DNA of 64,000 nucleotides from Xiphias gladius (Eukaryota; Chordata; Actinopteri; Istiophoriformes; Xiphiidae), in assembly GCF_016859285.1 (NCBI RefSeq), contig NC_053403.1:1-64000 (forward strand), in the 5' to 3' direction. Both the position numbers and the translations under genes were made by a program. Shown piece by piece: positions 10,578-61,599 of the stretch. Positions within the stretch are counted from its first letter, which is position 1; every line of letters starts with the position of its first letter. The notes under the pieces are model-generated. The model saw only the letters and a program-made list of their open reading frames with translations. It searched no databases and was not told the origin of the DNA.

Positions 10578-10643
<66 letters not shown>

Positions 10644-12639: not shown

Positions 12640-13237
12640 TTTGTTGTCAAACTGCTAGCTACTGCTACCTGATGACAACTTCCGGCGTATTTCCGCAGGT
12701 CGTATTTGGCGGCATTCTGGGGTCAGAGGTCATCTAGTAAAAAAAACTGAAGTAAAAACGAAAAATCCACCGAAGAACTCAATTGAAGTGTGACAGGGGA
12801 AATTGCAATGCGGTGCGTTCACTAATCACAGAGAAAATCATACACTCAATTAAATCCCTGATAAAACTAAACACTGATCTGTGTAATAGATCACATATCG
12901 GTCCTGTGATCTGTTTTATTTCATATTTGTAAAATAAAAACTGTAAATAAACATACGCATTATTTTAAGTCTTTCTAACAGCTCAAGCGTTCTATAATTT
13001 GAGTACTACTGCTGATGCTGCTTCTGCAGCTACTACTACTAGTAAGAAGAAGAAGTAGAAGAAGTAGAAGAAGAAGTAGAAGAAGAAGAAGAAGAAAAAG
13101 AAAAAGAAAAAGAAAAAGAAAATACGGTCCTGGAGACCTAATGTCTGAATGAGTTATGCCTTGGAGGCGTGACTCTACGTAAAGTACCGGAAGACATCAG
13201 ACACCGCGTGATGACGACCCAGGATGTCGTAATAAAG
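12640..13237. promoter_or_regulatory. Shared promoter of ubr7 (minus) and gon7 (plus)
   Basis: The two genes are transcribed away from each other from this interval. CTTCCGG near 12679 and ACCGGAAG at 13186-13193 are ETS/GABPA-type sites. AAGATGGCGGGC at about 13235-13246 is a YY1-type site placed over the gon7 start codon. A ubr7 noncoding exon probably ends here, with a possible donor CATCAG|GTAGCA near 12670. The interval also contains an AAG/TAG triplet run at about 13040-13122. No TATA box was seen, as expected for a housekeeping bidirectional promoter. Confidence 0.6.
13040..13122. repeat. AAG-rich triplet microsatellite
   Basis: Runs of AGAAG with TAG interruptions, then AGAAAA units, about 80 bp, between the two divergent genes. 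Confidence 0.85.
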
Positions 13238-13812
13238 ATGGCGGGCGTAGCGGTGTTAGCAGAGTTGAAGTTGAGGGATGGACAGAGACAGAAAATATGC
13301 GTTCAAGTAGAAAACAATCTGAGTTCTCTCATCCACGGAATAAACGAACTGAACGTGAATGTCTCACAGCTTCTCAGCGAGCTGGTGGAGCGTGAAAAAG
13401 CCCGCGGAGACTGCGCAGAGGGTGAGTAACCTACTGCTAGTAACTATGACAGAGCTAATGTCTTATTATTATTTACTGATAATGTGTTAAATGTTTTCTT
13501 GTTTGGAAACACCTTATTCGGTTAAAAATACCCGCCGGTTAATTTCCCAGGGTTTCATGTCTTTTATTAACGTGACTGCTCAGGTAAATTTATAAAACGG
13601 ACCTGTTCTAATCCACAGATCTGAGACGAATGTATCGTACTTAAAACAAAACCGTTACCTGTCAGTGTACCTGTTCAGCGGATTTCAGATTCACCTGTGT
13701 TTTAACTGATGCAGGTGAGGAAGACGAGGAGGATAGTGATGAAGAAGACGACGAGCCGGAGGATTCTCAATTTTCTGAGCTACAACCTCCAGCTAAAAGA
13801 TCCAAAACCTGA
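13238..13812 (+). CDS. gon7: GON7: EKC/KEOPS complex subunit
   Basis: Two coding exons, 13238-13421 and 13715-13812, joined in phase 1 (G|GT), give 93 residues, close to the roughly 100 of the family. Residues about 25-60 form a predicted helical segment (GINELNVNVSQLLSELVER), the part that contacts LAGE3/Pcc1. The second exon is strongly acidic (EEDEEDSDEEDDEPED) and ends PAKRSKT, like the ...AKRPKTPS tail of the human protein. KEOPS makes the t6A base of ANN-decoding tRNAs. The ATG at 13238 was chosen for its family-like length and the YY1-type sequence around it; the frame stays open further upstream but only from a GTG. Its head-to-head position with ubr7 matches the human locus. Identification rests on length, tail and synteny more than on strong sequence identity. 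Confidence 0.92.
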
Positions 13813-13935
13813 AACACCTGGAACACCTCAGGACACATGAAGACTCTGTTTGAGACAGGATGACATCACAATTTTACCTGTTTGAACTGAAGAGGATAAT
13901 GGCAGGTGATCAGTTACACGAATGGGTAGAAACTC

Positions 13936-13941
13936 AATAAA
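13936..13941 (+). terminator. Poly(A) signal for gon7
   Basis: AATAAA about 125 bases after the gon7 stop codon. Confidence 0.7.
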
Positions 13942-13949
13942 CCTGTACA

Positions 13950-14891
13950 GGTGTGTCTAAGTTAAAAACTAAGAATAAAATGTGATTTTTTTTTTTAAAA
14001 ACTTCTGCCTCTTCTTCTAATCATCACTACTCGCCAATCAGTTGCCATTGATCCAGAATCAGTTCATGGTGGCAAATGTCTGACTGGACCGCTGCTGTCA
14101 CTTCTGTAAAATCAATCTTTTCAGATTAAAAACGTCTATATTTCATTTTTTTTTTATTATATTGATATTGTAATAAAGTTGTTATGATAACCAGCATGTC
14201 ATGTAACTCATGTTATTACAGAAAAGTACCACAGAATATCCTGCTCTCTGATTGGCCAACAGCTGTCAAGTAACCTCTGTTCTAGATATTAACCTGCAGC
14301 TAGCCGAGGCAACTGGTTAAAGTAACCGTTGGTGCTGCTATCACCATATCAAATACCCTCCAGCCAATCACAGCACAGGACTGTCCGTGATATCTCAATG
14401 ACAAAACAACAGGACATTAATTGACAGCTGCAGACTGAGGCACAAACAACTGTTGGGCTTGAAGGTCAATACTCAGGGGAGCGCTCTTGAACCTGAGAGT
14501 CCGTCTGTATTTTTTTTTTTTTTTTCAACCTAGTTTAGATACAACCACGCCCACTTCAATATTGCTTAGGGTTAGGGCTCCTGGTCATTCTTTCAAGGCT
14601 TTCATCATACAGAACTAGGTTTGGTTTCATTTAAACTGGGTTGGAAAAACGATAGACGCTGAGACTCCAGAGTGGGGACAGAGTGGATTCTCCTAACAGT
14701 CAATACTTAGGGCAACGCTCGTGGGTCTGACAATCCACAGTGAGGGCAGTCCTGAACTCAGTCCCTGCTAGACAGTGTGGAGGATTATATCTGACAAGAG
14801 TCTTACTTTTTAAAAAGGCACACAGGAAGTGACATCACAAACATCAACACAAAAAGTTCGGAGCAGCTGCAGCCTCTGCGATTGGTCCTCT
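13950..14891. other. Convergent 3' ends of gon7 and lyset
   Basis: Roughly 940 bp holding the lyset 3'UTR on the minus strand, a poly(T) run near 14510 and a T-rich stretch near 14150 that gives a minus-strand AATAAA-like signal. No exon was recognised. Confidence 0.5.
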
Positions 14892-15266
14892 CTATGTGTC
14901 AATCACTGACCCTGCCCTGTGATTAGTCAGTGTCTGGGCAGTGGGGCGGCGGCTGCAAAGCAGGGTGATGCAGACAGGAAGTACGCAGTAACCAACAGCT
15001 CGGGGGTCAGCTCTCGTGCATGAGAACAGGAAGAGGAAGAGCTGCAGGTATGGCAGCAGGAAGACCGACGCCCACATCCAGACAGGAAGCGATGGCAGAT
15101 GAGACCAGGTGATGGAAGGGGGTGGAGCTGACGGGCTGACCCCACCTCTCTGCACGCGCTCCAAACTGAGCGTGTGCACCTCAAAGATGTAGTACACCGC
15201 CATGACGCTGAGCACCAGGTAGAGAGCCACGCCCACCCATCCCATCCTCTGACGGAAGTTCATCAT
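14892..15266 (-). CDS. lyset: LYSET (TMEM251/GCAF): lysosomal enzyme trafficking factor
   Basis: A single coding exon of 124 residues starting MMNFRQRMGWVGVALYL, nearly the same opening as the human protein. It has two hydrophobic segments, at about residues 10-28 and 58-84 (VWMWASVFLLPYLQLFLFLF), and then the conserved SCTRADP motif followed by a third, weaker hydrophobic stretch (VGYCVLPVCITLLC). LYSET is a Golgi membrane protein that holds GlcNAc-1-phosphotransferase in place so that lysosomal enzymes receive mannose-6-phosphate. The coding exon begins at an acceptor (CTGGACAG) at 15274. An in-frame stop upstream in the noncoding first exon supports the MMNF start. The C-terminus ends SVIDT, matching the human LIDT ending. 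Its position beside gon7 and ubr7 agrees with the human locus. Confidence 0.95.
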   Translation of the reverse strand: MMNFRQRMGWVGVALYLVLSVMAVYYIFEVHTLSLERVQRGGVSPSAPPPSITWSHLPSLPVWMWASVFLLPYLQLFLFLFSCTRADPRAVGYCVLPVCITLLCSRRPTAQTLTNHRAGSVIDT

Positions 15267-15354
15267 CCTCCATACTGTCCAGATATAATCAATAACCAAT
15301 CAATAATCAAAACATCATCAGTACATGATCATCACATCACCTGTACATCCTCTA

Positions 15355-19174: not shown

Positions 19175-28665
<9,491 letters not shown>

Positions 28666-40435: not shown

Positions 40436-43400
40436 TCAGTCGTCAAGTGATCCCTCCTGGTGTTGCAGGAAGCGGATCAGACCTCCAGGCAGCGGTAACT
40501 TCTTCACACGTCGACATCCAACGAGCTGCAGAATCTGCAGCCTGCAGAGCTGCATCAGCGGCCGTGGGGGAGCTGAAACACAACACAAACCAGTAACTTA
40601 CTGCTAAAATCATTGGAAAACTACCTAACAAACTTGTAACGTCACTGGAAAACTACCAGACAAACCAGTAACATCACTGGAAAACTATCAGACAAACTGC
40701 TAACTTAACTGAAAAAAAATAAAACAACCAGTAACTGCCACCCAAACCTGTGACCTCACTGGAAACTACCAAACAAACCAGTAACTTCACTGGAAAAGTA
40801 CCAGACAAACTGTTTAATTTACTGGAAAAAACAATAAAACAAACGAGTAACTTCACTAGAAAAATGTAACACAAACCTGTGACCTCACCGGAAAACCATA
40901 ACAAAACTGCTAACCTCACTGGAAAACTACCAGACAATATGGTAACATCATCATTTCTTACTGACACGTTTCCTGCAGCAGTATGAAATGAACTATAGCA
41001 TTATTTCAGGCACAGCACTGGTCATACTTGTATTGGTTTATTGGTATCAGGTGTTTCTAATATGTTTTAACAATCAGTGACTCATTGACAGCTCTGTGGC
41101 AAGTAACATCCAGTCATATTCATGCAGGTGTACAGAGCAGGCTTTATAATCTTATACTGTCACTGTTACTCTGTTGATTACATTCATGTCAACACAAATG
41201 GTCAAATCCTTGATGAAAGAGTTTCTGCCTGAAGACTGAATTATTAGTTAATGATAAGTTATTCACCTACCTGCTTTTTCCTTGATGACGCTCCAGTCTG
41301 AGTAACTGTCCAGGTGTTCCATCAGTCTGGAGCAGAGTGTCACATGACCAACGTAGTCCAATAGGACATCAATGATTGGCCCCGCCCACCGACAGATACT
41401 GGGGGCTGAGATCATCTCACAGAACTGTAAATCATTACAATGTTTCTGTTATTAACTCTAAATGAATTAATCAATCAATCAGTCAATCAATCAATCAAAC
41501 AAAGAACTGTCAATCAAACAATCAAACGAAGAGCTGTCGATCAATAACAGGGTCACAAATCTTTTTTTAGACATTAAATACTTTGAATCTCCAAGTTGCT
41601 CTGAAGTGAAATAAAGATGCATTCAACTGACATAGATTTTTTGGACATTTTTGGTAACAGCTGACGTCCCTTCACAACTCTGTCGGTGTAGCTCTTTATT
41701 TAAAGATTTTAAACTCAGGTCACCTGAACTCCTCGCATCAACTGTGTCTCTGCTAGGAATCTGTTGCTGTAGCGGAGGTCATGTCTCTCTGATCGGGTGG
41801 TTTTGATTGGTGGATGAGATTGGCTGCCGTAGATACAGTTGAAGCAGGAGAGGGCATGACCTCCATGGTCCAGCAGGTACTTGAACATGGGGAGGTTTTT
41901 CATGGAGAACATGTAGACAGCGGGGAAGGTGGTGGGGTGGGTGGGAATGCAAGCATTAATGTCAGCTCCGTGCTCCACCAGCAGGGTGACGGTCTGGATG
42001 CAGCCCAGCCTCGCTGCCACCATCAGCGGCTTGAACACATCCAGGTTTGGGTTGGCACCAGCCGCCAGCAGCATGCACACAGAATCAATGTTATTGTTGA
42101 TGACAGCGAAGTAGAGCGCTGTGCTGCGGCGGTCCTCGTACAGCTTTGATCGTTCCTCAGACAGCTGAGCGTTGACATCGAAGCCTGCCTCGATCAGAGC
42201 CTCCAGCACGTCGTCATGGTTATGCTCAGCTGCCACATGAAGCGGACTGATGCCGGTCCGCCAGACTCTGGCCTTACTGGTGGCTGGGATCAACATGGAC
42301 ACAATACTGGAAAGAGGTGAAATCACAGGAATTAGCCCAGATCAACCTCCAACCTCAAGCTGACGTTATCCGACACCTGACAGGAATCCAGAAGTAACTT
42401 CCTCATGAGAAAAAAAGTGTTTTTTTAGTATTATTTATCCGCTTAACAGGGTTATTTGCACCTTTGCTCTTACACCTTCATAGAAAATGTAATGTTTATA
42501 GTACAGATTTACCAATATAACATATTAACAATTTAACATTTCATGCAGTCCTGATGTTTGTTAATGTGCAGTATGTTTTGTTCCACCAGGTGTTGCCTTT
42601 GAGTAATTTTGGTGGATTTTGATCTAGAAGAACAACTACGTTTGTAGTTTTAGCATGCTACTAGACTATAAAGCAAACAGGCTACTTTTTTGTGCAGAAA
42701 GTGCAGAAATAAATATGCTTAGTACTAACATTCAGTGCTATGCAGATAACACCCAGCTCTACACAGCTGTTGATCCTGATGACCTGAGCCTAGTTACTCC
42801 AACTGAATCAGGACAAAACAGAGGTCCTCATTATTGGTCTATACCTGTGCATTCAGTTACATTATTTCAGCCATGCTTTGACCTTCTAATCAAAATTGTA
42901 GTGGTCAGTTATTATTTTAATGTCCCTTCCTGTCACATCAGAACCTAAAAAAATCAAGAACTATGCTGGTTTTAAACCTTGTCAAGTACAGATCATCAGC
43001 ACCTGCTCTGGTCTGGTGGACTTCAGTTCTCCTAACCCTACAAACATGGTATTTGAGATCATGAGGAGTTCAGCAATTATTGAAAGCTATTATTAAAATG
43101 GGGGACATAATAGTCAGTCTGCCTACGTATCACTTCCTCTCTGGGCAGCAATGTGAAGTGGTAATAATCCGGTCTTTCCAGGTTTGTTGGCATCAGCATT
43201 TTGTGAGAGGAGGAGTTTCACAATTTCCTCATGTCCATTTTTAGCAGCTTCATACAGAGCAGTGGCTCCATCACCAGCCTGACTGTTGATATCTGCACCT
43301 GCAGAGAACGGGTAAGGGTTCAGGGTTCAGTGTTCAGTGTTCAGGTGGAGGAAATCCTTAAATCAGTGCTCAGTTCCTATTTGTGAGGACATCACACATC

Positions 43401-46400
43401 ATTCTAAACATAGCAGTATTTATACTGAGAGAGGAGATGACAACCCTTCACTACACTGGTGTTTCTACTGGCTGCCTCAACCCACTGAAACCAGTTAGCA
43501 TGTAGCAACCGTGGTAGTTACTACAATGGGTAACAAACTGGGGACCAGGGTGTTTCTGTGGGGTTTCAGTTAGTTTTTGGTGACCAGTCTGAAACTCAGC
43601 ACAGATGATACATGTTGGTTGCAGTAGCAGAAGCAGTGGTACTTAGTCGTTAGCAGAAGCAGTAGCTGCAGTAATTAGCAGTTAGCAAAAGCAGTTAACA
43701 GAAGCAGAAGTAGTTGTCAGTAGCAGTTAGCAGTTTGCAGAAGCAGTAGTAGAATAACAATAAGATAAACCATCCCATCCATTTACCATGTTTAAGGAGG
43801 AATCGCAGGGTTGCGAGCTGCCCACTCTGAGCTGCAGTAAACAGTGGTGAGATGCCATACATATTGCTGAGGTTGTGTTTGGCTCCAGCCTTCAGCAGCA
43901 TCTCACAGATCTCCACATTGTTTTGAACCACAGCTTCTTGCAGCGCAGTCCAACCCTGAATGCAATGAGTGTTCACCGCTGCTCCATGGTTCAACAATGC
44001 TGCCACCATCGCAGCACTGTTCCTCTCACAGGCTGCAGAGGAAGAAAAAACTGTTCAGGGACAGGACACCAAAAAACACGTAGCAGAGTTTATTAAAGGG
44101 ACAGGCCACCAAAGTCACAGAAACATGCTCACTATCTCCTCCAGCTCCACTCTACACCACAATCACACCAGCTCACAACAGAACAAATTGTTTTCTTGTC
44201 AATGCCAATTTTTACTCTTTCAGACCTATAGAAATAAAAGCTGACCATAGGGAATCCACTTCTCTGATTGGCTGTCAGGTGTCTGTTAAAATCGTATATA
44301 TAGACTCCTCAAACATAATTCCGGTCAAAAGTTAATCACTGATCAAAGTCAGAGCTTAATGTATTCGATATCAACATTTACCTTCCGTTTCAGTGTCAGG
44401 ATCAGGATTGGCACTCGACTTGGCAGCTACTCTCAGTTTAGAAGATAGGATCAGGACTTGAATTGACAGATAATCTGAGTTTCGTGTTAGAATTGAAAAT
44501 GTTACTCTAGGGTATTATTCCACAGCCCAGAAACTATGTAATAAAGGCAAAGCCCTCTTAAAAATATAAAGTAAATCTGAGCACCAAAACAACATAATTT
44601 TGTATCAGAAGAATATTAGACAACAGATTCATTATTTTGTGATACCAGGCCTCAGAAATGATCGGCACCCCTGTCTCCTGTTAACATCCATAATTTAAAG
44701 ACAAATACCTTTTTTCTTCCCTAAGTAAACTCAGCATATGACGTCAAGTGAACTGCGTCTCTTTAGCTGCGATGTGTTCAGATCAATCTGTATGTTGGGA
44801 GACTGACATCACTTCCTGTCAGTGTTACCTTTGTAGAGCGGAGTCTCTTTGTCATGGTTTGTGATGTCAGGGTCAGCTCCATTTTCCAGCAGCACCTGGA
44901 TACATCGTAGTTGGTCTTTGCTGACAGCGACCAGCAGCGCTGACTCACCGCGCTCCGTTCGCTTATTGATCATCCCCGGCTGAGCTGAGCACAAAAACAC
45001 AGACAAGGGACTTCTCTCCCGTGGCCTTTGATGTAATGTTTTTGTTTTTGTCTGTATATATATCTACCTGACAGCAGAATTCTCAGACAGGTGTCCTGGC
45101 CATACCACGCCGCCTGGTGAATAGCAAGCCAGCCCGGTTTACTCGGCAGCATCAAGTTGGTTCCTGGACATTTGGCTAAAGCTCTCACTCTGCTCTTATC
45201 TCCAACACGGATTGCTTTGAACAGAGGCTCCTCCGCCCTGCAGGGGATACACCCATCAGAGACTTACCTCACAGGTCCCACCTTTCCCACCTGGCCTCAC
45301 CTGTCCCACCTGTCTTACCTGACATTACCTGTCCCACCTTTCTCGTCTGTCCCACCTGTCCCGCCTGACCTCACCTGTCCCACCTGACCCCACTTGTGTC
45401 ACCTGACTCCACCTGTCTCTCCCCTTTTTCGGGAAAAAAACATGAAAATTAAAAAAAAAAAAAACACCCTACATGTTCTTCATGAAAAGTGAACTACTTT
45501 TCATGGCTCTTCCCTGTAATAAACATTCATACCTGATGGTTTCAGTTACTGAGATGATACAGGTGAAACAACAGGTGATATAGGTGGTTCCAGGTACAGA
45601 GATGGTTTATGTAGATAGCTGAACTCACTCTTCAGGTTCTGGAGCAAGGTGGACCAGACTGCCATCAGCTGTGCGATAAACCACCATCCGCTTCCCAGAG
45701 CCCGTCATGAAGTGACTGACTGTTCCATCAAACGTCTTCCTGCCACAGCACCAAGACAACAGCCAATCAGAGCAAAGAGACTAATGCCACAGCCGATCAG
45801 AGTACAGAGACTGACAGCTCATCTGTCTCAAATTTAAACCTGGACCCACATTAAGAAAGTGTTAGAATCCCTCCACGTAATCATACTGAAAGTTAAACTG
45901 GGACTAAAATCAGCCCTCACGTCTTAATATACTACTTCGAATAATGGCATGTTTTGCCTTTATTATGCAGTATTTATTATTTATTATTGAGGAGGAGGAG
46001 TTGTATGACTGGTAAAAGTTTGATTGTTTGATTGTTGGTTGTTTATTTTCCCTGGTTCTGTAAGTTTGGGAGGACCTTGTCTCTCTCTTGCATCCTGCAC
46101 GAGGTCGGCCACAAACAAATTTGCTAACACAATATTTTAATAAGGTTGTTGTCATCAATGAAGATCTCTCCTCTCACAGAATATATCTGACTCCATCTCC
46201 TGCAGCTCATAACAAGATATCAGCACAGACAGAAGTCATTTATCTGGTTAAGAAAGTTAATAAAATGATTTTAGTTCTGGTCCTAAAAGTTATATCAAAC
46301 AATTGTCCCTCTGAGAGTTTTTGGCTTGTTGGGACTCATTTCCTACTCTGAGATGACTAATGAATGTACAGTTTGATTAATACATATCAATATTCTAATT

Positions 46401-48422
46401 TAGATTTATAGTGATTTATATATATTGGCTGTTTCAATTCCAGCATCTTCTAACATCTTCTAGTGGGGACTCAGAAGCTAATCAATACATCTGATCTCCT
46501 TACAGCCAACTGTTGAGACTGCATCTTCAGACTGTGATCAGAAATTGAAGTCAACTCTGTAAATCTGATCTGAGGTCTGTCTAGGGACTGTCAGAAAGTC
46601 TGTTGTGTTTTTTATCATCAGCAGATGCACTAATTTATCCGTTTAGTGTGGATGAAGAGAGTTTCCTTGTTGTTACTGTGCAGATGTGCCTGTGGGTGTT
46701 TTCTTGACGTTATTATTTCCAGCTTATTCACTATGAGGCAGATGTTTGGCAGCTATGAGCCGTCACATCTCATTTTCCTTATTATGTTATTATGTCACGT
46801 ATGTTTTTCTGTTATTAAACTGATTCGGTCTTAGGTTTAGAGTCTTTTGGAAAATTGCTACATTGCTGATTTTCTATTCCTGATTTGAATTTTCATGAAC
46901 ATAAAGTGGCAGTCTTCAAGATTTGTATTTAAATAAATGTGTTTTAGTCACCATCTGTTGCCAGATTACGTAACATAATGGTGAAAGAGCCTATGGCCCA
47001 ATGATGAAAGTATTGCAAAATTTATATGTTTGCAGTTTTATGAAGTGGGTGTCTGTGGCGACATTCCGAGAAAAAATGCTGTATTAAGTTATTGCTAATA
47101 AAAACCAAACATTTCCTCCTGCTGCAGCTTCACATTCAAAACATTTAACTGGTGAAACATGAGTTGACTTTTATTATGAAGTAGTCACAGGCAATGCCAT
47201 GTGTTTATCAGTGAGCTTAGCATTTACCACTACCATTCAACAAAAATGCATCTACAAAACAAGACAGTGGCCATTTTGGGTATTTCTGGACGGTGGATCA
47301 GTTTTAAATATTGCTGGGACTAATGGAAGAAGAAGGAGCAGCCACAGTGAGCTGTTAGATGAAGAACTGCAGGCGACAGTCTGCGCACCTCCAACTTCTC
47401 AGCCAGGTAACCAACTCCTTTCACTGTGCCCTGCTCTGCGCAGATTCATGCCATGTGCCACAGAAAATCAAATCATGGTTGCTCACAGAATTTTCGAAAA
47501 AGGCCAATCATTGCCTGACTTCTTTATGAAAACAACAACAGTTTTTTCGGTGCCCCCAGAAAATCTGGGACATGCGTTATTAAACCGCATTTGCTGTTAC
47601 CACCAGTAACTGCAGGGGTCGTCAAATCAACCAGGACTGAAATCTTCCAGACTGCCACTTTAACTGACTGCTATGTTCTAATAGTTGAATTGCAATGTGA
47701 GCTAAAGGTGCAGGATAATTATTCCTATAGTTATTATTCCTATATATGCATGTTCTTAGTTACATGTACAATCATTTGCCTGAGCTGGAGTCTTTTATGT
47801 AATTATCATCTCTGTATTTGTTCAGTCTTTTTTATGTTTTTTTACCTTTTCAGACGCCACACTTAATCTGCCTAAATTACAGTCTTGTCCAATAATCATC
47901 CTCAATAAAGAGACTTTCAATTATAAAGCCATTCTCCTCTGGACTCTTTGAATTCTCTGAGCAGAATCTTGTCTGTATCGATTTCTGCAAAACAGTAAAA
48001 TATCTGAGAACAAGACATGAACTGTGTGACCTCACATACAGATCAGGAGGCTTTTCACTTGGAGGATTTGGAGAACTGTAGTGCGCAGTGGTCGGGGTTG
48101 AAGGGGCATTATGGGAGCTGTAGTTTGCAGTTGGATTATGGGAGTTGTGTCTGGGTTGGTTGGTGTTTCTGGCTGCAGAGTTCAGGCTGGCAGGTTGGTG
48201 AGAATGCATGGGGGCAGCAGCAGGGCTGCTGGTTGCGTTGCTGGTTGCGTTGCTGGTTGTATTGCTGGTTGCGTTGGCGTTATTGCAGTGTGTGTCAGTC
48301 AGACTGCGCTCGATGGCGAGCTGCAGCACTTCTTCATCACTCAGGTTACTGTAGAAAGAATAATCCTCGAAGCCCAGACTGGGAGCTGCTGAGCCAGAGC
48401 GAGAGATGCTGTCTGCTGCCAT
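40436..48422 (-). CDS. asb2: ASB2, first copy: ankyrin-repeat SOCS-box substrate receptor
   Basis: Nine coding exons on the minus strand: 48422-48040, 45739-45629, 45237-45068, 44984-44829, 44032-43787, 43298-43127, 42306-41724, 41424-41271 and 40572-40436. All phases agree and the product is 703 residues. The N-terminus carries a ubiquitin-interacting motif (DEEVLQLAIERSL, about residues 29-41), marking the muscle-type ASB2 isoform, then a Ser/Thr/Asn-rich linker with ATSNTTSN repeats. About twelve ankyrin repeats follow (residues about 165-560). A C-terminal SOCS box has the Elongin-BC signature PLMQLCRLQI and the Cul5-type KKLPLPGG. ASB2 brings filamins and other muscle proteins to a Cullin-5 ligase. 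A 5'UTR exon (donor at 49107) splices to an acceptor at 48452. Oddities: an extra exon, 45739-45629, absent from the second copy; donor GTAGGC after 43127; and the duplicated promoter/exon 1 upstream. Zebrafish also has tandem asb2a genes as I recall; I do not assign .1 or .2. Confidence 0.95.
40595..40960. repeat. About 34-bp minisatellite in the last asb2 intron
   Basis: Ten or so degenerate units around ctggaaaactaccagacaaa, immediately upstream of the SOCS-box exon on the gene's strand. Confidence 0.8.
42640..42960 (+). mobile_element. LINE RT fragment with mutated YADD
   Basis: Plus strand encodes CYADNTQLYTAVDPDD, then after a frameshift LNQDKTEVLIIG. This is the L2-like RT active-site block with the second Asp changed to Asn, so it is inactive. 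It lies in asb2 intron 6, antisense to the gene. Confidence 0.75.
45280..45420. repeat. CCCACCTGTCCCACCTGACC repeat in asb2 intron 2
   Basis: Degenerate 10-20-bp units fill much of this 391-bp intron, close to the acceptor of exon 3 at 45237. They resemble the unit in trim50 intron 1. Confidence 0.8.
46903..47661. mobile_element. Candidate short inverted-repeat DNA element
   Basis: AAAGTGGCAGTCTTCAAGAT at the left end pairs with the reverse complement of the right end (AAAGTGGCAGTCTGGAAGAT). Both are flanked by TA, giving a 759-bp unit in asb2 intron 1. It includes a 136-codon plus-strand frame (47199-47609) that I do not recognise and do not regard as a gene. Confidence 0.55.
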
Positions 48423-49300
48423 GATGGAGGAAGACTGAGTTTCCCAAACCAGCTGAAGAAAAATAAGTTAAAACAGGATTAAAGAGGATCAAAGAGTCTA
48501 TTTTACACATACAGATTTTCCTCATTGCTGACCGAAATGAAGAAAGTTTTGACCAGACTGATATTTTCTGTTTTGTTTTGAGTTCAGATCCTAAAGAGGT
48601 TTGTGTTGATAAACTCCTTTTGATTTGTTTTGAGACAGGATTCATGAACTGAGAAAAGACGTAGAGAAAAAGAACCGTACAAACCCTACATTAAGTTGAA
48701 CTGAGAGCTAAGAGTTTTGTTTGTTTGCTGATTGTCAAAATATTGTTTATGTAGTTTCTAATGCCAATAAAAAGACACAGTAAGTGTCGTGTGAGCTATA
48801 ATTAACTATGCAGCTTGTGGGAGGCACTAAGAGTTAGTCTGTTAGTCTGGTTTCATGTCTTCCGTCGGTGTCATTAATAAACCAGTGGGCTCTGACCTTT
48901 AACCCAGTGACACCAGTATGAGTCCTGATACAGAAAAACTATAAACTGTGACTTTAACTGCAGCAAAAAAACAGCAAACTAAACTGACAGTAAAACTTAA
49001 TATCAATAACTAAACTGAGAGTAAAACTTTATACAAACAACTAAACCAAAGTAAACCACCAAACAATCAGCAGTGAAACCAGATTATGACTGAACAAGAT
49101 ACTCACCTCGTTTTAAAGTTTTTCTTCGTTAATCCAGTGTTTCCTGTCAGTTAAAACACGTCCATCTGTTTTCCGCCTGTTTTCACTCTGTAATGGAGTC
49201 TGCACATGACAGTAGGGGAGGGGTGGGGGGTGGGGTTTGGGGTGGGGTGAAGTTGGAGGGAGGGTTATTTTAAGGACCAGCAGTCTGAGGTTGTTGACTA
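48226..49300 (-). promoter_or_regulatory. Proximal promoter, 5'UTR exon and exon 1 unit of asb2
   Basis: This unit runs from the short ATSN repeat tract through exon 1 (ATG at 48422, acceptor at 48452) and the 5'UTR exon (donor at 49107) to the upstream sequence. A G-rich run at about 49214-49250 with several GGGG blocks may form a quadruplex. The unit ends at 49300 in ttgttgacta, where the distal copy's minisatellite begins abruptly. Confidence 0.7.
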
Positions 49301-50775
49301 GTTGCGTTGCTGGTTGTATTGCTGGTTGCGTTGCTGGTTGTATTGCTGGTTGCGTTGCTGGTTGTATTGCTGGTTGCGTTGCTGGTTGTATTGCTGGTTG
49401 CGTTGCTGGTTGTATTGCTGGTTGCGTTGCTGGTTGTATTGCTGGTTGCGTTGCTGGTTGTATTGCTGGTTGCGTTGCTGGTTGTATTGCTGGTTGCGTT
49501 GCTGGTTGTATTGCTGGTTGCGTTGCTGGTTGTATTGCTGGTTGCGTTGCTGGTTGTATTGCTGGTTGCGTTGCTGGTTGTATTGCTGGTTGCGTTGCTG
49601 GTTGTATTGCTGGTTGCGTTGCTGGTTGTATTGCTGGTTGCGTTGCTGGTTGTATTGCTGGTTGCGTTGCTGGTTGTATTGCTGGTTGCGTTGCTGGTTG
49701 TATTGCTGGTTGCGTTGCTGGTTGTATTGCTGGTTGCGTTGCTGGTTGTATTGCTGGTTGCGTTGCTGGTTGTATTGCTGGTTGCGTTGCTGGTTGTATT
49801 GCTGGTTGCGTTGCTGGTTGTATTGCTGGTTGCGTTGCTGGTTGTATTGCTGGTTGCGTTGCTGGTTGTATTGCTGGTTGCGTTGCTGGTTGTATTGCTG
49901 GTTGCGTTGCTGGTTGTATTGCTGGTTGCGTTGCTGGTTGTATTGCTGGTTGCGTTGCTGGTTGTATTGCTGGTTGCGTTGCTGGTTGTATTGCTGGTTG
50001 CGTTGCTGGTTGTATTGCTGGTTGCGTTGCTGGTTGTATTGCTGGTTGCGTTGCTGGTTGTATTGCTGGTTGCGTTGCTGGTTGTATTGCTGGTTGCGTT
50101 GCTGGTTGTATTGCTGGTTGCGTTGCTGGTTGTATTGCTGGTTGCGTTGCTGGTTGTATTGCTGGTTGCGTTGCTGGTTGTATTGCTGGTTGCGTTGCTG
50201 GTTGTATTGCTGGTTGCGTTGCTGGTTGTATTGCTGGTTGCGTTGCTGGTTGTATTGCTGGTTGCGTTGCTGGTTGTATTGCTGGTTGCGTTGCTGGTTG
50301 TATTGCTGGTTGCGTTGCTGGTTGTATTGCTGGTTGCGTTGCTGGTTGTATTGCTGGTTGCGTTGCTGGTTGTATTGCTGGTTGCGTTGCTGGTTGTATT
50401 GCTGGTTGCGTTGCTGGTTGTATTGCTGGTTGCGTTGCTGGTTGTATTGCTGGTTGCGTTGCTGGTTGTATTGCTGGTTGCGTTGCTGGTTGTATTGCTG
50501 GTTGCGTTGCTGGTTGTATTGCTGGTTGCGTTGCTGGTTGTATTGCTGGTTGCGTTGCTGGTTGTATTGCTGGTTGCGTTGCTGGTTGCGTTGCTGGTTG
50601 CGTTGCTGGTTGTATTGCTGGTTGCGTTGGCGTTATTGCAGTGTGTGTCAGTCAGACTGCGCTCGATGGCGAGCTGCAGCACTTCTTCATCACTCAGGTT
50701 ACTGTAGAAAGAATAATCCTCGAAGCCCAGACTGGGAGCTGCTGAGCCAGAGCGAGAGATGCTGTCTGCTGCCAT
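49270..50775 (-). pseudogene. Distal duplicate of asb2 exon 1 with runaway coding minisatellite
   Basis: Starting at 50775, the first 50 or so residues are identical to asb2 exon 1 (MAADSISRSGS ... DEEVLQLAIERSL ... NNANATSNTTSN). The frame then enters about 55 copies of ATSNTTSN and ends at 49270 in QQPQTAGP and a stop, for 501 codons. It lacks the rest of exon 1 and its donor (present only at 48040). The 24-bp unit contains no GT on this strand, so the array offers no cryptic donor. A transcript using this exon would be cut short and probably degraded, or would make a UIM plus repeat polypeptide. It could also be skipped, because the proximal acceptor at 48452 remains available. Confidence 0.8.
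49301..50635 (-). repeat. 24-bp minisatellite, about 55 near-perfect copies, in frame
   Basis: On the plus strand the unit alternates gttgcgttgctg with gttgtattgctg. On the minus strand it encodes ATSNTTSN. From 49301 to about 50580 every 120-base block is identical. Only the last units next to exon 1 vary (two extra GCG-type half-units). The proximal gene copy has only about two units at 48226-48270. Since 24 is a multiple of 3 and the unit contains no stop in several frames, long open frames appear on both strands. Confidence 0.97.
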
Positions 50776-51654
50776 GATGGAGGAAGACTGAGTTTCCCAA
50801 ACCAGCTGAAGAAAAATAAGTTAAAACAGGATTAAAGAGGATCAAAGAGTCTATTTTACACATACAGATTTTCCTCATTGCTGACCGAAATGAAGAAAGT
50901 TTTGACCAGACTGATATTTTCTGTTTTGTTTTGAGTTCAGATCCTAAAGAGGTTTGTGTTGATAAACTCCTTTTGATTTGTTTTGAGACAGGATTCATGA
51001 ACTGAGAAAAGACGTAGAGAAAAGAACCGTACAAACCCTACATTAAGTTGAACTGAGAGCTAAGAGTTTTGTTTGTTTGCTGATTGTCAAAATATTGTTT
51101 ATGTAGTTTCTAATGCCAATAAAAAGACACAGTAAGTGTCGTGTGAGCTATAATTAACTATGCAGCTTGTGGGAGGCACTAAGAGTTAGTCTGTTAGTCT
51201 GGTTTCATGTCTTCCGTCGGTGTCATTAATAAACCAGTGGGCTCTGACCTTTAACCCAGTGACACCAGTATGAGTCCTGATACAGAAAAACTATAAACTG
51301 TGACTTTAACTGCAGCAAAAAAACAGCAAACTAAACTGACAGTAAAACTTAATATCAATAACTAAACTGAGAGTAAAACTTTATACAAACAACTAAACCA
51401 AAGTAAACCACCAAACAATCAGCAGTGAAACCAGATTATGACTGAACAAGATACTCACCTCGTTTTAAAGTTTTTCTTCGTTAATCCAGTGTTTCCTGTC
51501 AGTTAAAACACGTCCATCTGTTTTCCGCCTGTTTTCACTCTGTAATGGAGTCTGCACATGACAGTAGGGGAGGGGTGGGGGGGGTGGGGTTTGGGGTGGG
51601 GTGAAGTTGGAGGGAGGGTTATTTTAAGGACCAGCAGTCTGAGGTTGTTGACTA
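50580..51654 (-). promoter_or_regulatory. Distal duplicate of asb2 promoter, 5'UTR exon and exon 1
   Basis: It matches 48226-49300 base for base at an offset of about 2353, except for one A fewer in an A-run (near 51021) and two extra G in the G-run (near 51575). The 5'UTR donor (51459) and the exon 1 acceptor (50805) are intact. At 51655 the sequence becomes unique (ctgacctctttac), which marks the duplication end. Confidence 0.9.
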
Positions 51655-52465
51655 GCTGACCTCTTTACTCACTCTAATGTTACAGGTAGAGTTGTACGAA
51701 CAAACAACACAGTCAGCACATCAGACTCTAAATGTTCACTTAAAACAAACATCAAGATGTTTTATATGAAATAATGACCAGGTGTTTAATCTCTGTTGGA
51801 CATTAACTGGGATCATACCGTTTCTGTCCAGCATTAATCCCAGATTAGTCTCAATTTAAACCCCACTCAATTGGCGTTAATCCTTTATCATCCCAAAATT
51901 CACATGTATTCTGTCCCAATTTAATCTCAGATCTATCACACATTTATCCGAGAAAATGTCAGGGTTAATCTCTACTCCTTCTTGAGTTAATCTGAGTCCA
52001 AGATCGATCTTTGAACTGTTAAGAATTAATCCCAGATCTGTCCTGGGTAACTCTTTGATCCGTCCAGGCTCAGGGTAATCTGTAATCTATTTTGAGTTCA
52101 TCCGTAATCCTTCCAGGGTTAATCTCAAAATTTTCCATATTTAGTCTTAGATTTAGAAGAAAATTAATCTAAACTCTGTCTCAAATTAATACTTAATCTA
52201 ACCCCATATATTCCCAGATATGATATGTTCTGATTTGATTCCAGGTCTCAAACTGATCTCATTAAGACCAGTTGATGTTCTGGTCAATCAGGAAATAAAG
52301 ATAAACGTGTTAAACCAACACAGGTTGCTCCATTGGGACCAACAACAATAACCAGGCTAAAGGTTGGGGTCAGGAATTTAGTTGTGATGCTTAAGGTTAG
52401 GGTTAGGGGCTAGAAAATGCATTCTGTAAATATGTAAATGAGGGTCCTCACAACTATAGGAGAAC

Positions 52466-52607
<142 letters not shown>

Positions 52608-52689: not shown

Positions 52690-54175
52690 AATGCAGAGTG
52701 GTAACTGAGTACATTTACTACAGTTCTGTACAGTACAGTACTCCAACAAGCCTTGGCTTTCAGTGGACCAAGAGCCGGGATCACCAGCCCGATCAACCCC
52801 AGTAACCTGCAGTTCCAGGTACAGCCAATGCCTGGCAGTGGAGGTCTCAACATCAGGCTTCCTCTCACCCCCGCTGTGCCCCCGGGCAGTCAGGCACGCA
52901 AGCTCAGGCCTGGCATCCACCCGTGCTGCTTGTTGTCAGCACTTTTATGGTTCGGGAATTGGTGGTACACAGTAGTCAGACTTTCTGCTATCCAGGTGTT
53001 TGCATAAAGGATATAACATCCACCGCTCTGCAGCTTACTGCAGACATACTGTAACTCTGCCTCTGCAGTCGTTGTTCCTGTTGGCACCAACAACATCAAA
53101 AGTCAATGAGGAGTTTGTGCACCTCATGGACAGTCTGCTGGACACCAGAAACCAGGTAATTATCCCCACCCCAGTATTCATTCAACATCCCCTTCTAGCT
53201 CCCCCGATCTGTACGATAGTCAGCGTACAGCATCTGCTACCCCTGTCTTATGGGGGCACAGACCTGTCAATTCAAGGGTCAAGAAGAATATTTCTAATAA
53301 TCTTATCTTTATTGCCCCAGAGTCTCCTCCTGCTGCTGTGAACCCTACATTGTCTAAATGCACCACTCACAAAGTCTGACCCCACTGCTTCTTTAAACTC
53401 AGTCTACTCTACACCCTTTCCTTAATCCTTTAGATTTTAAGAATACGAAAGTTTTAGGTCCCATTCATTTAAATATTAGGAGCATCATTCAGCATGATAA
53501 ATTGGATCAGCTGTAAATCTTGATAACACAAATAGATCTTGATTTTGTGGTATTATCTGAAACCTGGTTAAGATGAACTGTGAGTGATTCTGGGGTAGCC
53601 TCTTGTTACTGTGGTTGGTGTGTACATTCCTCCGTCTGCTTCCTCCTCAGCTATTAATGAAATAGCTGATCTTTTAGCTCCATATAAAAATTCAGAGGTG
53701 ATCCTACGAGTGGATTTTATCTTAAATTGGCTGAGTTCTGCTGCCGATTATTTAAAACAAGTCTGTGGCATTATTCATCTTTCACAGATAGTTACTGACT
53801 CTACCAGGCCAAATTTAAAAGACCCCTCTCAGTCATTTCTGATTGACTTAATTTTAACAAACAGAAAAGAAAAAATGACCAACTCAGGAGTATTTCTAAA
53901 TCAGTTTAGTGATGATTGTCCAACAGTTTGCAATCAGAGTACCAGAATAATTTTTTTTTTTTTTTTATATATTTTCTGTGTTTCCTGGTGACGAGGATCC
54001 TTTGGTTATATTGTAATTTAGTTCTCTACCTCAATGTATTTCCGAGTTAAAATAAAGGTTGAATGAATAAATGAAAAGGTTTATGGTACTTACTACTATA
54101 CTACTTTATACTTTTACTGCACTGCATTTTGGAGGGAAATGCTATTCTTTTTACTGCAATTAATATTTATATCGA
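52690..54175 (+). mobile_element. L2-like LINE nested inside a common fish repeat
   Basis: 52690-52740 (gtggtaactgagtacattta) and 54081-54175 (ctactttatacttttactgc) are the two halves of one widespread teleost repeat. The LINE between them has an ORF1 esterase-like piece (VVPVGTNNIK, NEEFVHLMDSLLDTRNQVI, about 53065-53170). It then has the endonuclease domain of ORF2 (VVGVYIPPSAS ... VILRVDFILNWLS ... QIVTDSTRPNL ... SFLIDLILTNRK, 53611-53940). The reverse transcriptase is missing; the usual GDFN Asp-Phe-Asn is kept only as VDFI, so the copy is dead. A poly(T) run at 53949 ends the endonuclease part. Confidence 0.8.
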
Positions 54176-55118: not shown

Positions 55119-58100
55119 TCAAGTGAGTGAGCTGTGGACGTCGTAGTGCAGGAACCGGTTGAGTCTGACCGGAAGTGGCAGGGTGTGGAGCAGTTTGAGT
55201 CGTTGGACTCCAACTAGACGTCTGATCTTCAGCCTACAGAGCTGCATCAGAGGATGAGGAGGAACTGAACCATACACACAGACAGAAGGATGGGTTAGAG
55301 GTTTTTATAACTGAGTCTGAACAGACCTGATCCCTGATCTGTGGTCCCGCTGCATGAGTCCCACCCCCCAGATAGTGCCAGCTCCACTCACAGCTCAGCC
55401 AGCCAATCAGAGTGAGACACTACTCACAACTGTGATCTGGACTGGATTATATGAACAAGTGTTTCTTATGGAAATATTAGAAACCCTTTAAAACATAACT
55501 TAATCCACTGACAGTGAATTCTAAAACTGATCAGCTGGACTGTAAGATACAGCAGGAACTTTTCCAAAAAGCCTTTCTAAAACCTCAAGAACTTTTACAG
55601 GAATTTTGAATTTTGAACTCTGAATGTATAAATCTTTTTAAAACCTCAAGTACCTTTTTCAGCACAGAGAAAGCCCTTTAGGACATTTTTTTACAAACTC
55701 TGAGAAACTGAGAAACCTCTTTAGAAAGTATGGAGCCATAACTCAGACAGAAAACTGAAGACGGAAGACTGACGACAGAAACTCTGAAACCCTTTAAGCT
55801 TGTTATGTAAACTGCCACCTATCTGTGAGAGTTGTTTTGTTCCTTACGAGCTTTCAGTTTGATCGGCGCCCAGTCGCTGCAACTGTCCAGAACTTCGAGC
55901 AGCCTCGAGCAGAGACGGACATGACTGACGTAGTCCAGCAGCACCGAGATGATTGGACCAGTGACACGATAGAAAGACGAGCTGGAGACGGCTTCACAGA
56001 ACTGAAACAAGATGGAGGACACTAAGAGAGGAAAGCCTGAGAGGACAGAGGACACTCTGAGAGGAGAGAGGACACAGAGCACACTCAGAGGACAGAGGAC
56101 ACACTCAAAAGACAGAGGACACTTTGAGAGGACTGAAACAAAGATGAACTGCACAGAACTGAAACAAGATGGAAGACACCCTGTATTTATCGGAAACACA
56201 TGCACTGATTTATACTTTATACTCCTGACTCACCTGAATGCTACGTTGCAGTGGCACATCTCCACTGACCTGCATATCTTCAGTGGGTCGGCGTGAGGGT
56301 GTCACAGCTGGATGGGGTTTTTGGCCATATGGACAGTCAAAGCAGGGCCGGGCATCGCAGCCATTGTCCAGTAGCAGTTTGAGCATGGGCAGACACTCCA
56401 TCGTGAGTAGGATCGCGGACGGGAACGAGGTTGGCTGCGTGCAGATCTGAGCGTTGACATTGGCACCATGCCTCAGCAGCAACGCTGCTATGTCCATCCA
56501 GCCAAGCCGGGCGGCAATGAGCAGCGGATTAAAGAGGTCCAGGTTGGGGTCAGCTCCAGCCTCCAGCAGCATCTCAGTGGCCTCCAGGTTCCCATTGTAA
56601 ACGGAGAAGTACAGCGCTGTGCTCCGCCGGTCTTCGTACATCCTGGAGCACTCTTCTGACAGCTCTGAGTTGATGTCGTAGCCGGACTCGATCAGCAGCT
56701 TCAAACACTCGTCCCTGTTCCTCTCTGCAGCGATGTGCAGAGGACTGATACCGCTGTACCGGACTCTGACACTACTGGTGACCGGGATCAGCATTGGCAC
56801 GATTCTGGAAATACAAAATTTAGAGTTCAGGGTGTGCCATGTTTATTTTTGACCAAATATATCTTGCTATCAATAGCAGAGTCAGCAGAGTCTGGCTTAT
56901 TTTGGTGAGCCCTGCGTCTTTAATTTAAAGAGACTGATGTTTGTAATTTCAGACTTCCTTTTAAGTTCTTAAATCCCAGTACCAGAGGATATGTCTGAGT
57001 ATTAATAAAACCAGCAGTGAAACACAGAGCAGTTGATGATGATGCAGGTAAAACAGTGACAGGCAGTTTCAGACTCCTACAGTAAAACCTCTGATTGGTT
57101 CAGACCGTGTGTGATTGTTCTTAACAGCCACATGAAGAGGCAGCAGGCCGGACTTCATGGATCGGTTAGCATCAGCTTTCAAAGAAAGCAGTGCCTCCAC
57201 AACTGAAACATGACCATTCTTAGAGGCTTCAAACAGCGGCGAAGCTCCATCTCCTGCCTGTCCATTTATATCTGCACCTGAAAAACATAAAACACTTTAA
57301 CATAAGCTCCTGAGAGGCACTAAAAATAATTTGTGGACAGGACTGCATGGCTGACCTTTCTTTGCAAGCAAGTGGATGATGTCGACGTGTCCATTCTGTG
57401 CAGCAGTGAAGAACGGTTGGATGCCATAGATGTTTTTGTTTTGTAGATTGGCTCCAGCCTCCAATAACATCCTACAGAGCTTCAGTCTTCCATGTCTGCA
57501 GGCTTCATGAAGAGCAGTTCCTCCCTGACTGCAGGAGCGATTCACCTGAGCTCCAGACCTCAGCAGCAAGTCCACAATGACTTCATTTGGCTGCTCACAG
57601 GCTAAAACACAACAACAATAAGAACATAAGCTTTTTTTTAGACTAAGAGGGTTTTTATTACATTATTTGCAATACTATCCAGTTGAATACTCACTCAGCC
57701 TTTATAAACTTAGCATGTATGAAAGCACAAAGCCTTATGATGCTCTCCCTGTGAACTATGTTAATCCCGAGATTCCCTTTACAACAGTCATGTGATCTCA
57801 CCTGCAAACAGCGGTGTGTCTCTGTCCTTGTTAGCAATGTTTGGGTCAGCTCCATGCTTTAGGAGAAAGTCCACACAGGAAATGTTTCCTCGCTCAGCAG
57901 CCAGCAGCAGAGCGGTCTGGTTCTTCAAACTAAATCTGTTCACTGAGTCGGGATCAGCTGAGGGTGGAGGTCACAGGTCAAACTGTCTGTGTTTGACTCA
58001 CTTGTCCTGGTTTAGCTATGCTTTATTACAACTTTGGTTTTATTTTCATAGCTCTGAAAACGTACTCAACCAAGGAACTTGCTCTGTCTCAATTTGCATT

Positions 58101-60338
58101 CTTCCATACTCACACTTGCTATTTTTGGTGTATAAGTTTGCTTAGACTGACAAGTATATATAACCCAGATAGTGTGTACTTAAAATGGTCAAAAAGTTGA
58201 GTGTGAAAGGATGGACACTTCTCACCCTCAATGGTCACCATCTTGGCTACATAGCAAAAGGAGAGGAACCACCAACCTATTTTTAAACTTGTGAAAATGT
58301 TGGCTGAGGAAAGAGCACACGTAATTGGCACTGATGGTGGTGTTATTTCCCATGTTGCATTAAACATGGGGCACACAAAAGAAAGTAAAACTTTCATTTT
58401 AATTCAAATGAACAAAGCCGCTAGTAGATATTTTGGCAAGCGACAATCACAGTCACATCTTGAAATTGTCATTTCCAGTAACAACACCGCCCTGTTGAAA
58501 TTCACACACTACGCCAGTAAGTATACTGTGTATACAGTGTACTACATGTCAGTGTACTAAATGAAGTATCCAAAGTGAGACACGGCAATTTATTAGTGCC
58601 CCAAGGCAGAAACAGTAGAGTTTTTAACATGTAGAACACACAAGACAAGAAATTATTACAGAGTCACGGAAATTAGGGCCAGTTGAAGCCAGCACAAAGT
58701 ATTTTGGAGTGTGTCGGCAGTACACAGGGCAGAATAAATGACCGTAGAGTAACTGGACATTCACTGGGATTAAATCAAGCAGGAGATAGTAATGCAAAAT
58801 CAAGAATGGCAGCTGAAGTAAAGCTTCATAGAAGACAAAAGTGTAGACTTGTTTGTAACGACCCGGCAGTTTGATCTGACCGCTCAGGTTTGTGGCCTCA
58901 CTTAGCCCATTTTTTTAGCAACATTACCACTTTCTTCAAATGTCAGTAATTACTTTGATGAGTTAATTGTCATAACAGATGACCAGAGCTATGAAAATAA
59001 AACCTAAGTTGTAATTAACTTTCATTTTAATTTAAGGCCCTCGTGCCTACTAAAGTACATAGGTTTAGAAATCTAGTCAGTTTTAGAGGTATCTTAGCAT
59101 GAACAAAAGTGTTGGACAAGTGAAAAAGAACAGCTGCAGGTGGGGCTAGAAGAAAGGTCAGGGAATCACCAAAGTCATTATGATTTACCTCTTGGGGGCC
59201 ATGAATGTCAATTTTATGACAATCCGTGTAATAGATGTTGAGATCAGATTTGAGTCTGGACCAACTGATATTTTCAACACTAGAGCCACCATGGTAGTAA
59301 GGCAAAAAACAGTGGTCATGAAGACTTGACCACTAATTGTAAAGAGCACGAGCAATCAAATTGAACAAAATATTTGTGTTTGAAATATTCTGACCGTGAC
59401 CATCCAGTCTGAAAATCTACAAGGAATGATGAGTTTAATATGAATCGGTGTAAAGTATCAGTTACACCAGGTAGAATCCATTCTGATGATCAGGTACCAG
59501 AAAACAGCAGCATTACTCACCTCTGATGAGGATCCTGACACACTGTAGCTGTCCATAATAAGCAGCTTCATGAAGAGCAATCCAGCCTTCATCATCTGGT
59601 TCCGTCAGACTCGTGGACCTCCGTCTGACCAAATCCATCAAAGCCTCAGCATCTCCATTTATAATCATAGACTGCAAAGGACTGAATTCTCTGAGTCAAA
59701 AATAGAACAATACTCACTATGAAGACCAGGTACTGAGACAGAAAAGAGACAGAAAAAACATTAAGAAACTGCAAACAGCTAGAAAACAATAGGACACCGC
59801 TAATTAAGATCTAAACACCATATACAAACATCTAGCGAAAGTCCAAAATTTGTTGAAGGACTAGTAAATGGTTAGCAAAGAGTGGCTAACATTCAGAAGC
59901 TGTCTGTTGTTAGACGTTTATCGGCTCTTTTTAGATGTTTGCTGGCCGTTTGCTCGCTCTCTGGAATGTTCAATCCGGACTGACTCACCTCTTGAAGGCT
60001 TTGTAGAGAAACTGTGACAGGGCTGTTGGGGGGTTTGCACAGTTTGAGACATTTGGGAGGTCTGCAGGCGGAGGTTGGGATGGAGGTACGTAGTACAGGT
60101 GTCTGGAGGGGTCAGGATGTCTCTCTCTGGGGTTTGGGTTTGTTTTGTTTTGGGCAGCCGGGGTAGGAGGGTCTGAAGATGATGATGCTGATGAAGATGA
60201 CGATGATGTGGTCTGATCTGATCCTGGAGGAAAGTGTGTATCAGCGAGGCTTCTCTCGACAGCAATCTGCAGCACCTCCTCATCGGACAGGTGACTGTAA
60301 ATATTGTAGTCATCCAGATTCACCTCAGAGACTGCCAT
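55119..60338 (-). CDS. asb2: ASB2, second copy: ankyrin-repeat SOCS-box substrate receptor
   Basis: Eight coding exons on the minus strand: 60338-59989, 59690-59521, 57957-57802, 57601-57356, 57277-57106, 56804-56234, 56001-55848 and 55264-55119. All phases agree and the product is 654 residues. Five internal exons have exactly the same lengths as in the first copy (170, 156, 246, 172, 154). A UIM (DEEVLQIAVERSL, about residues 20-32) is followed by a Ser/Pro/Asn-rich linker without the ATSN repeat, ankyrin repeats at about 117-510, and a SOCS box with PLMQLCRLKI and HTLPLPVR. The start MAVSEVNLDDY was chosen by alignment to the first copy; a methionine ten codons upstream is in frame but lies in front of the acceptor at 60345. 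The donor after 57106 is GTCTGA, unusual but at the same position as in the first copy. Likely role: Cullin-5 ligase receptor, perhaps with different substrates or timing from its neighbour. Confidence 0.95.
58025..59012. mobile_element. Inverted-repeat element in asb2 (second copy) intron 2
   Basis: TTTTATTTTCATAGCTCTG at the left (about 58037-58055) pairs with its reverse complement at about 58985-59003. Similarity spans roughly 38 bases on each side. Inside are unrecognised open frames (58291-58560, 58119-58397). It may be a nonautonomous DNA element about 1 kb long. Confidence 0.5.
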
Positions 60339-61599
60339 GTAGGGTCTAATGGGTGGAGAAAGAATCAACTGTTCAGGTCCAGTCAGTTTGGTTCAAAGCG
60401 ATTAAAGTTCTGGTATACTGGATAACAACTCAGCAGAAGTCTCTTAGACTTTCATCAGCAGTGTTTCCCACAGTTACTGGGATGAATAACAGCTCTACAC
60501 GTAAACTGCAGCAGGTCATTTGAGTCGACCTCTTGAAATTTTGGCTGAACCTGCTGGTAAATATGAGGTCAGTGAATGTGACTGGAAGCCGTGGAGGTCA
60601 GCAGTGTTTCTTTTCTCTGTCCTGAGGCCAAAATATTCAAACACACCGAGAACTGTTGATCTGATCTGCAGAAGCTCCAGAAAACTCACACACAGAAAAC
60701 ACAGAAACACAATTCTTTTTGTTTGAATCTGGAGGAGTTTTTACATTTCTAATTCTTCTTAAAACTAAATGAACTGAATTTCAACAACTGAACAAATATT
60801 GACAAAGATCAGTGACATTTATATGATCATTGTATGAACTCTAAAAATGGCGATTTCTGTTGTTTTGTCTTATAAAAATAAAATAATAACAAACCACACC
60901 AAACATAAAAAAGCATACATTACATGACAATAACTAACATTAGCTAACACAACATAACGTAATACAACATAACGCACATAACATAACATGACAAAGCATG
61001 ACAACAAACATGACATAATTTAACATGACACAACATAACAAAAATGCCTAACAAACAACATAACCCACCATAATCTGTGGTTGAGTTAAAGCAGAAAGAC
61101 TCTGATGGTGCTATCTCTTCTGCCAGCAGCAGAAGAGAGTTGGCCAAAGTTCTGATACTGAAACTTTGCTGGCTGAAAGTCAACCAGACTAAACTGAGAA
61201 ACTTCCTGTCTGATTCTAACAGACTTTACTGTCTATGACCTGATTACAGCTATGCTCACATATGGAACTGACGAGTTTAACACAGTCCTCCGCAGATTCA
61301 TCATCACACTCCTAAAACACTCTCGGACTTACAATGGACAGAAAGGATGAAAATTGTGCAGCAGAACCAGAAATCTTTTCTTTTTCTTTTTATTCCACAC
61401 ATTCTTCTTCTTTGTCAAAACCTGGTGCCTACATTACCCACAATGCACCCGGTCCTCTGACAGCTGGATGGGAGATTGGAGTGTGTCGCCTTGAGCCGCA
61501 TGACATTAACTCAGTATACATACTCCGTCCACATACTCTTTCCCATAAAGACTGCGTCTGCCCCAACACTTAATTTCTGAATTTTATCTGAATTTTCAG

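Follow-up and report, generated by a model that had tools for sequence, protein, structure and literature searches.

In aromatase excess syndrome, a 79-kb tandem duplication of non-coding exons 1 of CYP19A1 has been described, in which the duplicated exon serves as a start site, and the overexpression of CYP19A1 was ascribed to the added promoters (PMC3272822). The locus described in this study, the 5' part of an asb2-type gene, is similar to CYP19A1 in that putative promoters and non-coding first exons are tandemly duplicated upstream of the coding exons, and the coding exons are unchanged. In CYP19A1, the duplicated exon 1 in the distal position starts transcription, whereas the two starts of the asb2-type gene are predicted ones. 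The asb2-type unit also differs from that of CYP19A1 in being only 1.07 kb long, in cutting into the first coding exon and in having an expanded coding minisatellite at the junction. The asb2-type case may be regarded as a small and young example of the CYP19A1 kind, the coding minisatellite at the junction being the added twist. A near-identical exon repeated within one gene of one assembly is also the appearance of false exon gain, as characterized in PMC9516828, but the asb2-type copies have no gap between them. The homogeneous tandem array, with a unit of at least 7 bp and a position in or beside a gene, is like the minisatellite VNTRs treated in PMC8096271 and PMC8024321; in contrast to those VNTRs, the asb2-type expansion sits in a duplicate that is probably skipped. 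Literature searches on asb2 with tandem duplicates in zebrafish and on minisatellites with first-exon duplication gave no tandem asb2 and no matching case, respectively, among the matches listed, which does not imply absence from print.

If real, this would be a very young natural duplication of a promoter and first exon, caught before the copies diverge, and it would show how such a duplication can be tolerated, because the start codon lies in exon 2 and an extra exon 1 would be protein-neutral. Overexpression of the beta isoform of ASB2 has been reported to lead to muscle atrophy (PMC8042406). If it is an artefact, it would be a useful case of false exon gain linked to a minisatellite but lacking an N gap, which is one of the signs used for spotting such errors.

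The window, i.e., the whole stretch of DNA that was analysed, comprises the first 64,000 nucleotides of scaffold C4 (C4:1-64000; the scaffold is 26.5 Mb long, and the whole assembly has 1,298 contigs with a total of 690.8 Mb). Judged by its size and its genes, the assembly looks like that of a fish. The duplicated gene start looks like that of an asb2-like, muscle-type gene. The earlier note had assigned it to asb2, and this assignment is supported by the ankyrin repeats (PF12796, Ank_2, 1.9e-65, six stretches in Pfam), by a SOCS box at the C-terminus (PF07525, E 2.2e-8, 34.6 bits against a cut-off of 23.5, residues 661-695) and by the intact frame of 703 residues. A UIM-like SDEEVLQLAIERSL near the N-terminus gave a score below the Pfam cut-off (PF02809, 13.8 bits against 21, E 0.053, a 24-residue piece being queried alone). 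Pfam queries with the whole protein (at E up to 1), with the 196-residue ORF (at E up to 0.1) and with the corresponding piece of the neighbouring paralogue gave no UIM match, and a PDB search for an ASB2 relative gave no ASB-named protein among the matches listed (60 of 384). ASB2-beta is composed of ankyrin repeats and a SOCS box, with a UIM at the N-terminus (PMC8042406).

The gene model is a prediction on the minus strand, the exon borders of which were chosen by eye from the sequence and then tested for frame. The in-frame join has 704 codons with one terminal stop, giving 703 amino acids, and runs from exon 2 (48452-48040) through seven more exons to 41271 and then to the last coding exon (40572-40436). 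The start codon lies in exon 2, exon 1 being non-coding, and it has its counterpart at 50775 in the distal copy; intron 1 is 653/654 bp. The coding exons are:

48040 to 48452, minus strand: proximal exon 2, containing the start codon (48422) and leading on into the asb2-type frame.
40436 to 45739, minus strand: remaining asb2-type coding exons, joined in frame (45739-45629, 45237-45068, 44984-44829, 44032-43787, 43298-43127, 42306-41724, 41424-41271, 40572-40436).

The donor after 48040 is weak (2.3 bits), and an alternative GT at 48036 reaches 6.1 bits but breaks the frame into the next modelled exon; these and all other donor scores were calculated with a matrix of approximate frequencies.

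Blastn and block comparison both showed that the direct duplication claimed in the earlier note is present in the sequence, with 48227-49301 corresponding to 50580-51655 (1075 and 1076 bp) at a start offset of 2353. The two copies, their differences and the repeat arrays are as follows:

48227 to 49301, minus strand: proximal copy, with the first 226 nt of exon 2 including 3 minisatellite units, intron 1, the non-coding exon 1 and a putative core promoter.
50580 to 51655, minus strand: distal copy, with the same content as the proximal unit; its upstream side passes into other DNA at 51656.
48667/51019: first length difference, 1 bp in an A-run.
49231/51583: second length difference, 2 bp in a G-run (as a C-run near the 5' end, 8 against 6 bases in this assembly).
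49302 to 50629, minus strand: minisatellite of 12-bp units, CAGCAA(TACAAC or CGCAAC); by unit parsing, TCCC is followed by (TC)x53.
48227 to 48276, minus strand: proximal exon 2 has a short version of the array here, with the units TCC.

Identity between the copies is 99.7%, both comparisons giving 0 mismatches and 2 gaps, and the identical blocks across the unit measure 440, 563 and 71 bases on the plus strand. The earlier note had counted three length differences and the block comparison reduced them to two; a T/C replacement and an AC insertion sit outside the unit, at the breakpoint, where the array is set against different DNA. Its breakpoints proved correct to within 1 bp when the sequence was read at the junctions. 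After GACTA, one G is common to both sides, followed by the array from 49302 or by other DNA from 51656, and the microhomology at the junction is 1 bp (G). What had been described as duplication of the promoter, the 5'UTR exon and the first coding exon holds for the putative core promoter, exon 1 and intron 1, but of exon 2, which is 413 nt long, only 226 nt are included. Upstream, the unit extends 28 bp beyond the TATA-like TTAAAATA, and its other end falls inside the coding minisatellite of exon 2, so that this second breakpoint can be placed only to within the minisatellite. With no substitution in 1,075 bp, divergence has a 95% upper bound of about 0.28% (Poisson), and the true divergence may be nil since differences confined to homopolymers resemble residual consensus errors. 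A self-comparison was carried out on 264 kb of C4 (224 kb contiguous, including 500 N, and four stretches of 10 kb, each against itself). Apart from shifted self-matches of the array, it gave no further repeat on the same strand that reached 200 bp and 95% identity at an offset above 60 bp. Chance origin of the duplication is excluded because no comparable repeat exists in the 264 kb examined.

The minisatellite at the junction was called by TRF at 49301-50629 (24 bp x 55.4, about 1.33 kb), and unit parsing on the minus strand resolved it into 110 units, or 1,320 bp, with zero irregular units; the array takes up over half of the 2,353-bp period. The array translates as NATS/NTTS in the frame of exon 2, and GT is absent from it on the minus (coding) strand. 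A 37-base pattern of the array, searched with at most 2 mismatches, had 54 matches in the assembly, all within the array. As a cause of the junction, homeology of the array with the promoter breakpoint was considered and rejected, because 1,551 of 13,330 windows align equally well or better, as do 34% of 5,000 shuffles.

Two segments and one reading frame bear on the predicted expression of this gene:

51459 to 51655, minus strand: distal putative core promoter with the TATA-like TTAAAATA (51620-51627), and non-coding exon 1 with its donor GAG/GTGAGT following 51459.
49107 to 49301, minus strand: proximal putative core promoter with TTAAAATA (49266-49273), and non-coding exon 1 with its donor following 49107.
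49270 to 50775, minus strand: ORF of 501 aa that opens at the distal start codon, crosses the entire array and stops at a TAA in the promoter copy; it has the UIM-like motif and NATS/NTTS repeats.

The position of both segments and the box TTAAAATA, which we take to be TATA-like, point to a promoter role, and transcription starts were assumed near the boxes, at 51590 and 49238. Both exon-1 donors are the top ones among the 10 donors of the model (11.5 bits). The donor at 51459 and the acceptors at 50805 and 48452 proposed in the earlier note fit the sequence and the gene model, and the exon-2 acceptors are identical between the copies. As had also been proposed, splicing of distal exon 1 to proximal exon 2 is predicted to be protein-neutral, because exon 1 is non-coding; the predicted mRNAs (last exon omitted) give the same 658 residues whether the distal or the proximal exon 1 is joined to proximal exon 2.

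A point overlooked in the earlier note is that distal exon 2 is a probable dead end, because there is no GT in the array, the composite exon is 1,699 nt long and a premature stop follows. There are 16 GTs from the start of distal exon 2 to 49100, of which the one at 49107 scores 11.5 bits and the next best 2.4; it is by splicing via 49107 that the 1,699-nt composite exon arises. The 501-aa ORF contains 57 NATS and 54 NTTS motifs, and its stop lies nine residues beyond the array and, in the model, 163 nt ahead of the next junction, so that by the usual NMD rule an mRNA keeping distal exon 2 is predicted to be an NMD target. Within the model itself, two donors have scores as low as 2.3 and 2.8 bits, and the weak GTs of distal exon 2 at 50803 (2.4 bits) and 50703 (1.6 bits) are therefore possible donors. 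Since intron 1 is so short, intron definition could favour the distal acceptor, i.e., inclusion. For a gene with long introns, exon size was problematic at 432 nt and skipping was predominant at 526 nt, in an experiment cited by PMC2614967.

None of the 64000 bases in the window is an N or any letter other than A, C, G and T, and hence there is no gap between the copies. The sole N run in the first 224 kb of C4 consists of 500 N at 155948, which makes the window part of about 156 kb of uninterrupted sequence. Positions 48300-48900, a 601-bp segment of the unit, had exactly 2 matches in the 690.8-Mb assembly, i.e., the tandem pair, in a DNA search that skips very common words. As the unit part and the array pattern match only here, no leftover haplotig carrying them is present in the assembly, and a dispersed copy elsewhere was rejected on the same matches. 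The left-flank query (47000-48200) matched elsewhere only over its first 680 bases or so, which belong to a dispersed repeat. This repeat (47000-47680) lies in intron 2/3 of the asb2-type gene and has at least 40 matches elsewhere at 79-88% identity, two of them representing one place, with 40 of 968 candidates scored.

Judged from these sequence comparisons, the duplication is somewhat more probably real in the animal than not. A substantial though less probable explanation is an assembly artefact, in which overlapping contig ends meeting at the minisatellite, either from the same haplotype or from alleles with a short and a long array, were joined unmerged, and one real unit was printed twice. 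The duplication is located at a long and very regular minisatellite, which is a likely break point and a difficult place to assemble, the second copy starts inside the array as a contig end could, and the copies differ in homopolymers only. The 500-N gap also shows that the assembly is scaffolded, gap closing elsewhere being conceivable, and false exon gains have been documented in vertebrate assemblies (PMC9516828). However, gaps between the pairs are listed there as a main sign of false duplication, and the two copies here are not separated by any N; the join overlaps by only 1 bp, which is not the size of a contig overlap, the 601-bp segment of the unit and the array pattern have no further copies, and no similar case occurs within the 264 kb examined. 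The earlier note had suggested two alleles placed in series, which is indeed one form of such an artefact, but SNPs would usually be predicted between alleles and none was found in about 1,075 bp, a point whose weight depends on heterozygosity. The zero substitutions fit better with unmerged ends of one haplotype than with two alleles.

Another explanation, which overlaps with the one we favour and which we consider rather unlikely, accepts the duplication as real but regards one unit as inert, with a single promoter being used or the RNA of the other being degraded. The proximal promoter retains just 28 bp above its TATA-like box and is 2.35 kb away from the native upstream DNA, and the probable dead end at distal exon 2 would suit an inert unit as well; against this, the distal promoter has both its native upstream DNA and a strong donor, and the acceptors of exon 2 are the same in both copies.

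A very recent partial-gene tandem duplication within the asb2-type gene, accompanied by array expansion, is the probable explanation, and it is favoured by the clean direct duplication with 0 substitutions and by the intact 703-residue downstream frame. The breakpoints would have fallen 28 bp upstream of the TATA-like box and inside the coding minisatellite of exon 2, and the junction homology of 1 bp makes end joining or replication template switching likelier than homologous recombination. The junction array would have grown to 110 units during or after the duplication, and both the putative core promoter and the non-coding first exon would now be present twice in the gene. Transcripts starting at the distal promoter would most likely skip distal exon 2 and join proximal exon 2, which leaves the protein unchanged. 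RNA that keeps distal exon 2 would take in the array, then the promoter copy and also the second exon 1, all within a single 1,699-nt exon with its stop, and would end in degradation or in a 501-residue UIM-like/repeat protein. The net effect may be near-silent or a modest change of expression. As a highly speculative extension, to which we give very little chance, the duplication may have turned the coding minisatellite into mostly spliced-out DNA, which, relieved of protein constraint, grew to 110 units and became a length-variable switch. The distal acceptor would then lead to an NMD-prone 'poison' exon, the inclusion of which falls with array growth, and array length would set the yield of asb2 from the distal promoter, or sometimes that of a 501-residue UIM-like-(NATS/NTTS)n decoy.

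A second asb2-type gene lies in tandem upstream at 55822-60392 on the minus strand, with an N-terminal SDEEVLQIAVERSL and ankyrin exons among its ORFs. One of its ankyrin exons is 52% identical over 199 residues to the exon at 41.7-42.3 kb, and the gene is an old tandem paralogue outside the young duplication. Promoter/exon-1 sequence common to both genes was looked for by comparing the 198-bp stretch with the 5' side of this paralogue and was rejected, as the similarity was at chance level (27 of 100 shuffles were as good). The zebrafish pair asb2a.1/asb2a.2 is presumably a parallel to the tandem asb2-type pair. Exons of DUF4611 (GON7-type, plus strand) and TMEM251 (minus strand) were found by Pfam close together at 13142-15299, and we take these neighbours to agree with the human ASB2 region at 14q32. 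A UBR-box-like stretch at 10444-11037 had no Pfam match, nor had a RING-like CPVC stretch at 19465-19758; the latter and an exon with a SPRY domain at 28225-28662 (plus strand, Pfam) possibly belong to a TRIM-type gene. A (GT)70 microsatellite occupies 52468-52607, about 0.8 kb upstream of the distal promoter. On the plus strand at 53599-53988 there is an endonuclease-reverse transcriptase-like fragment (PF14529, 23 bits, below the cut-off of 27.4), likely a retroelement remnant upstream of the asb2-type gene.
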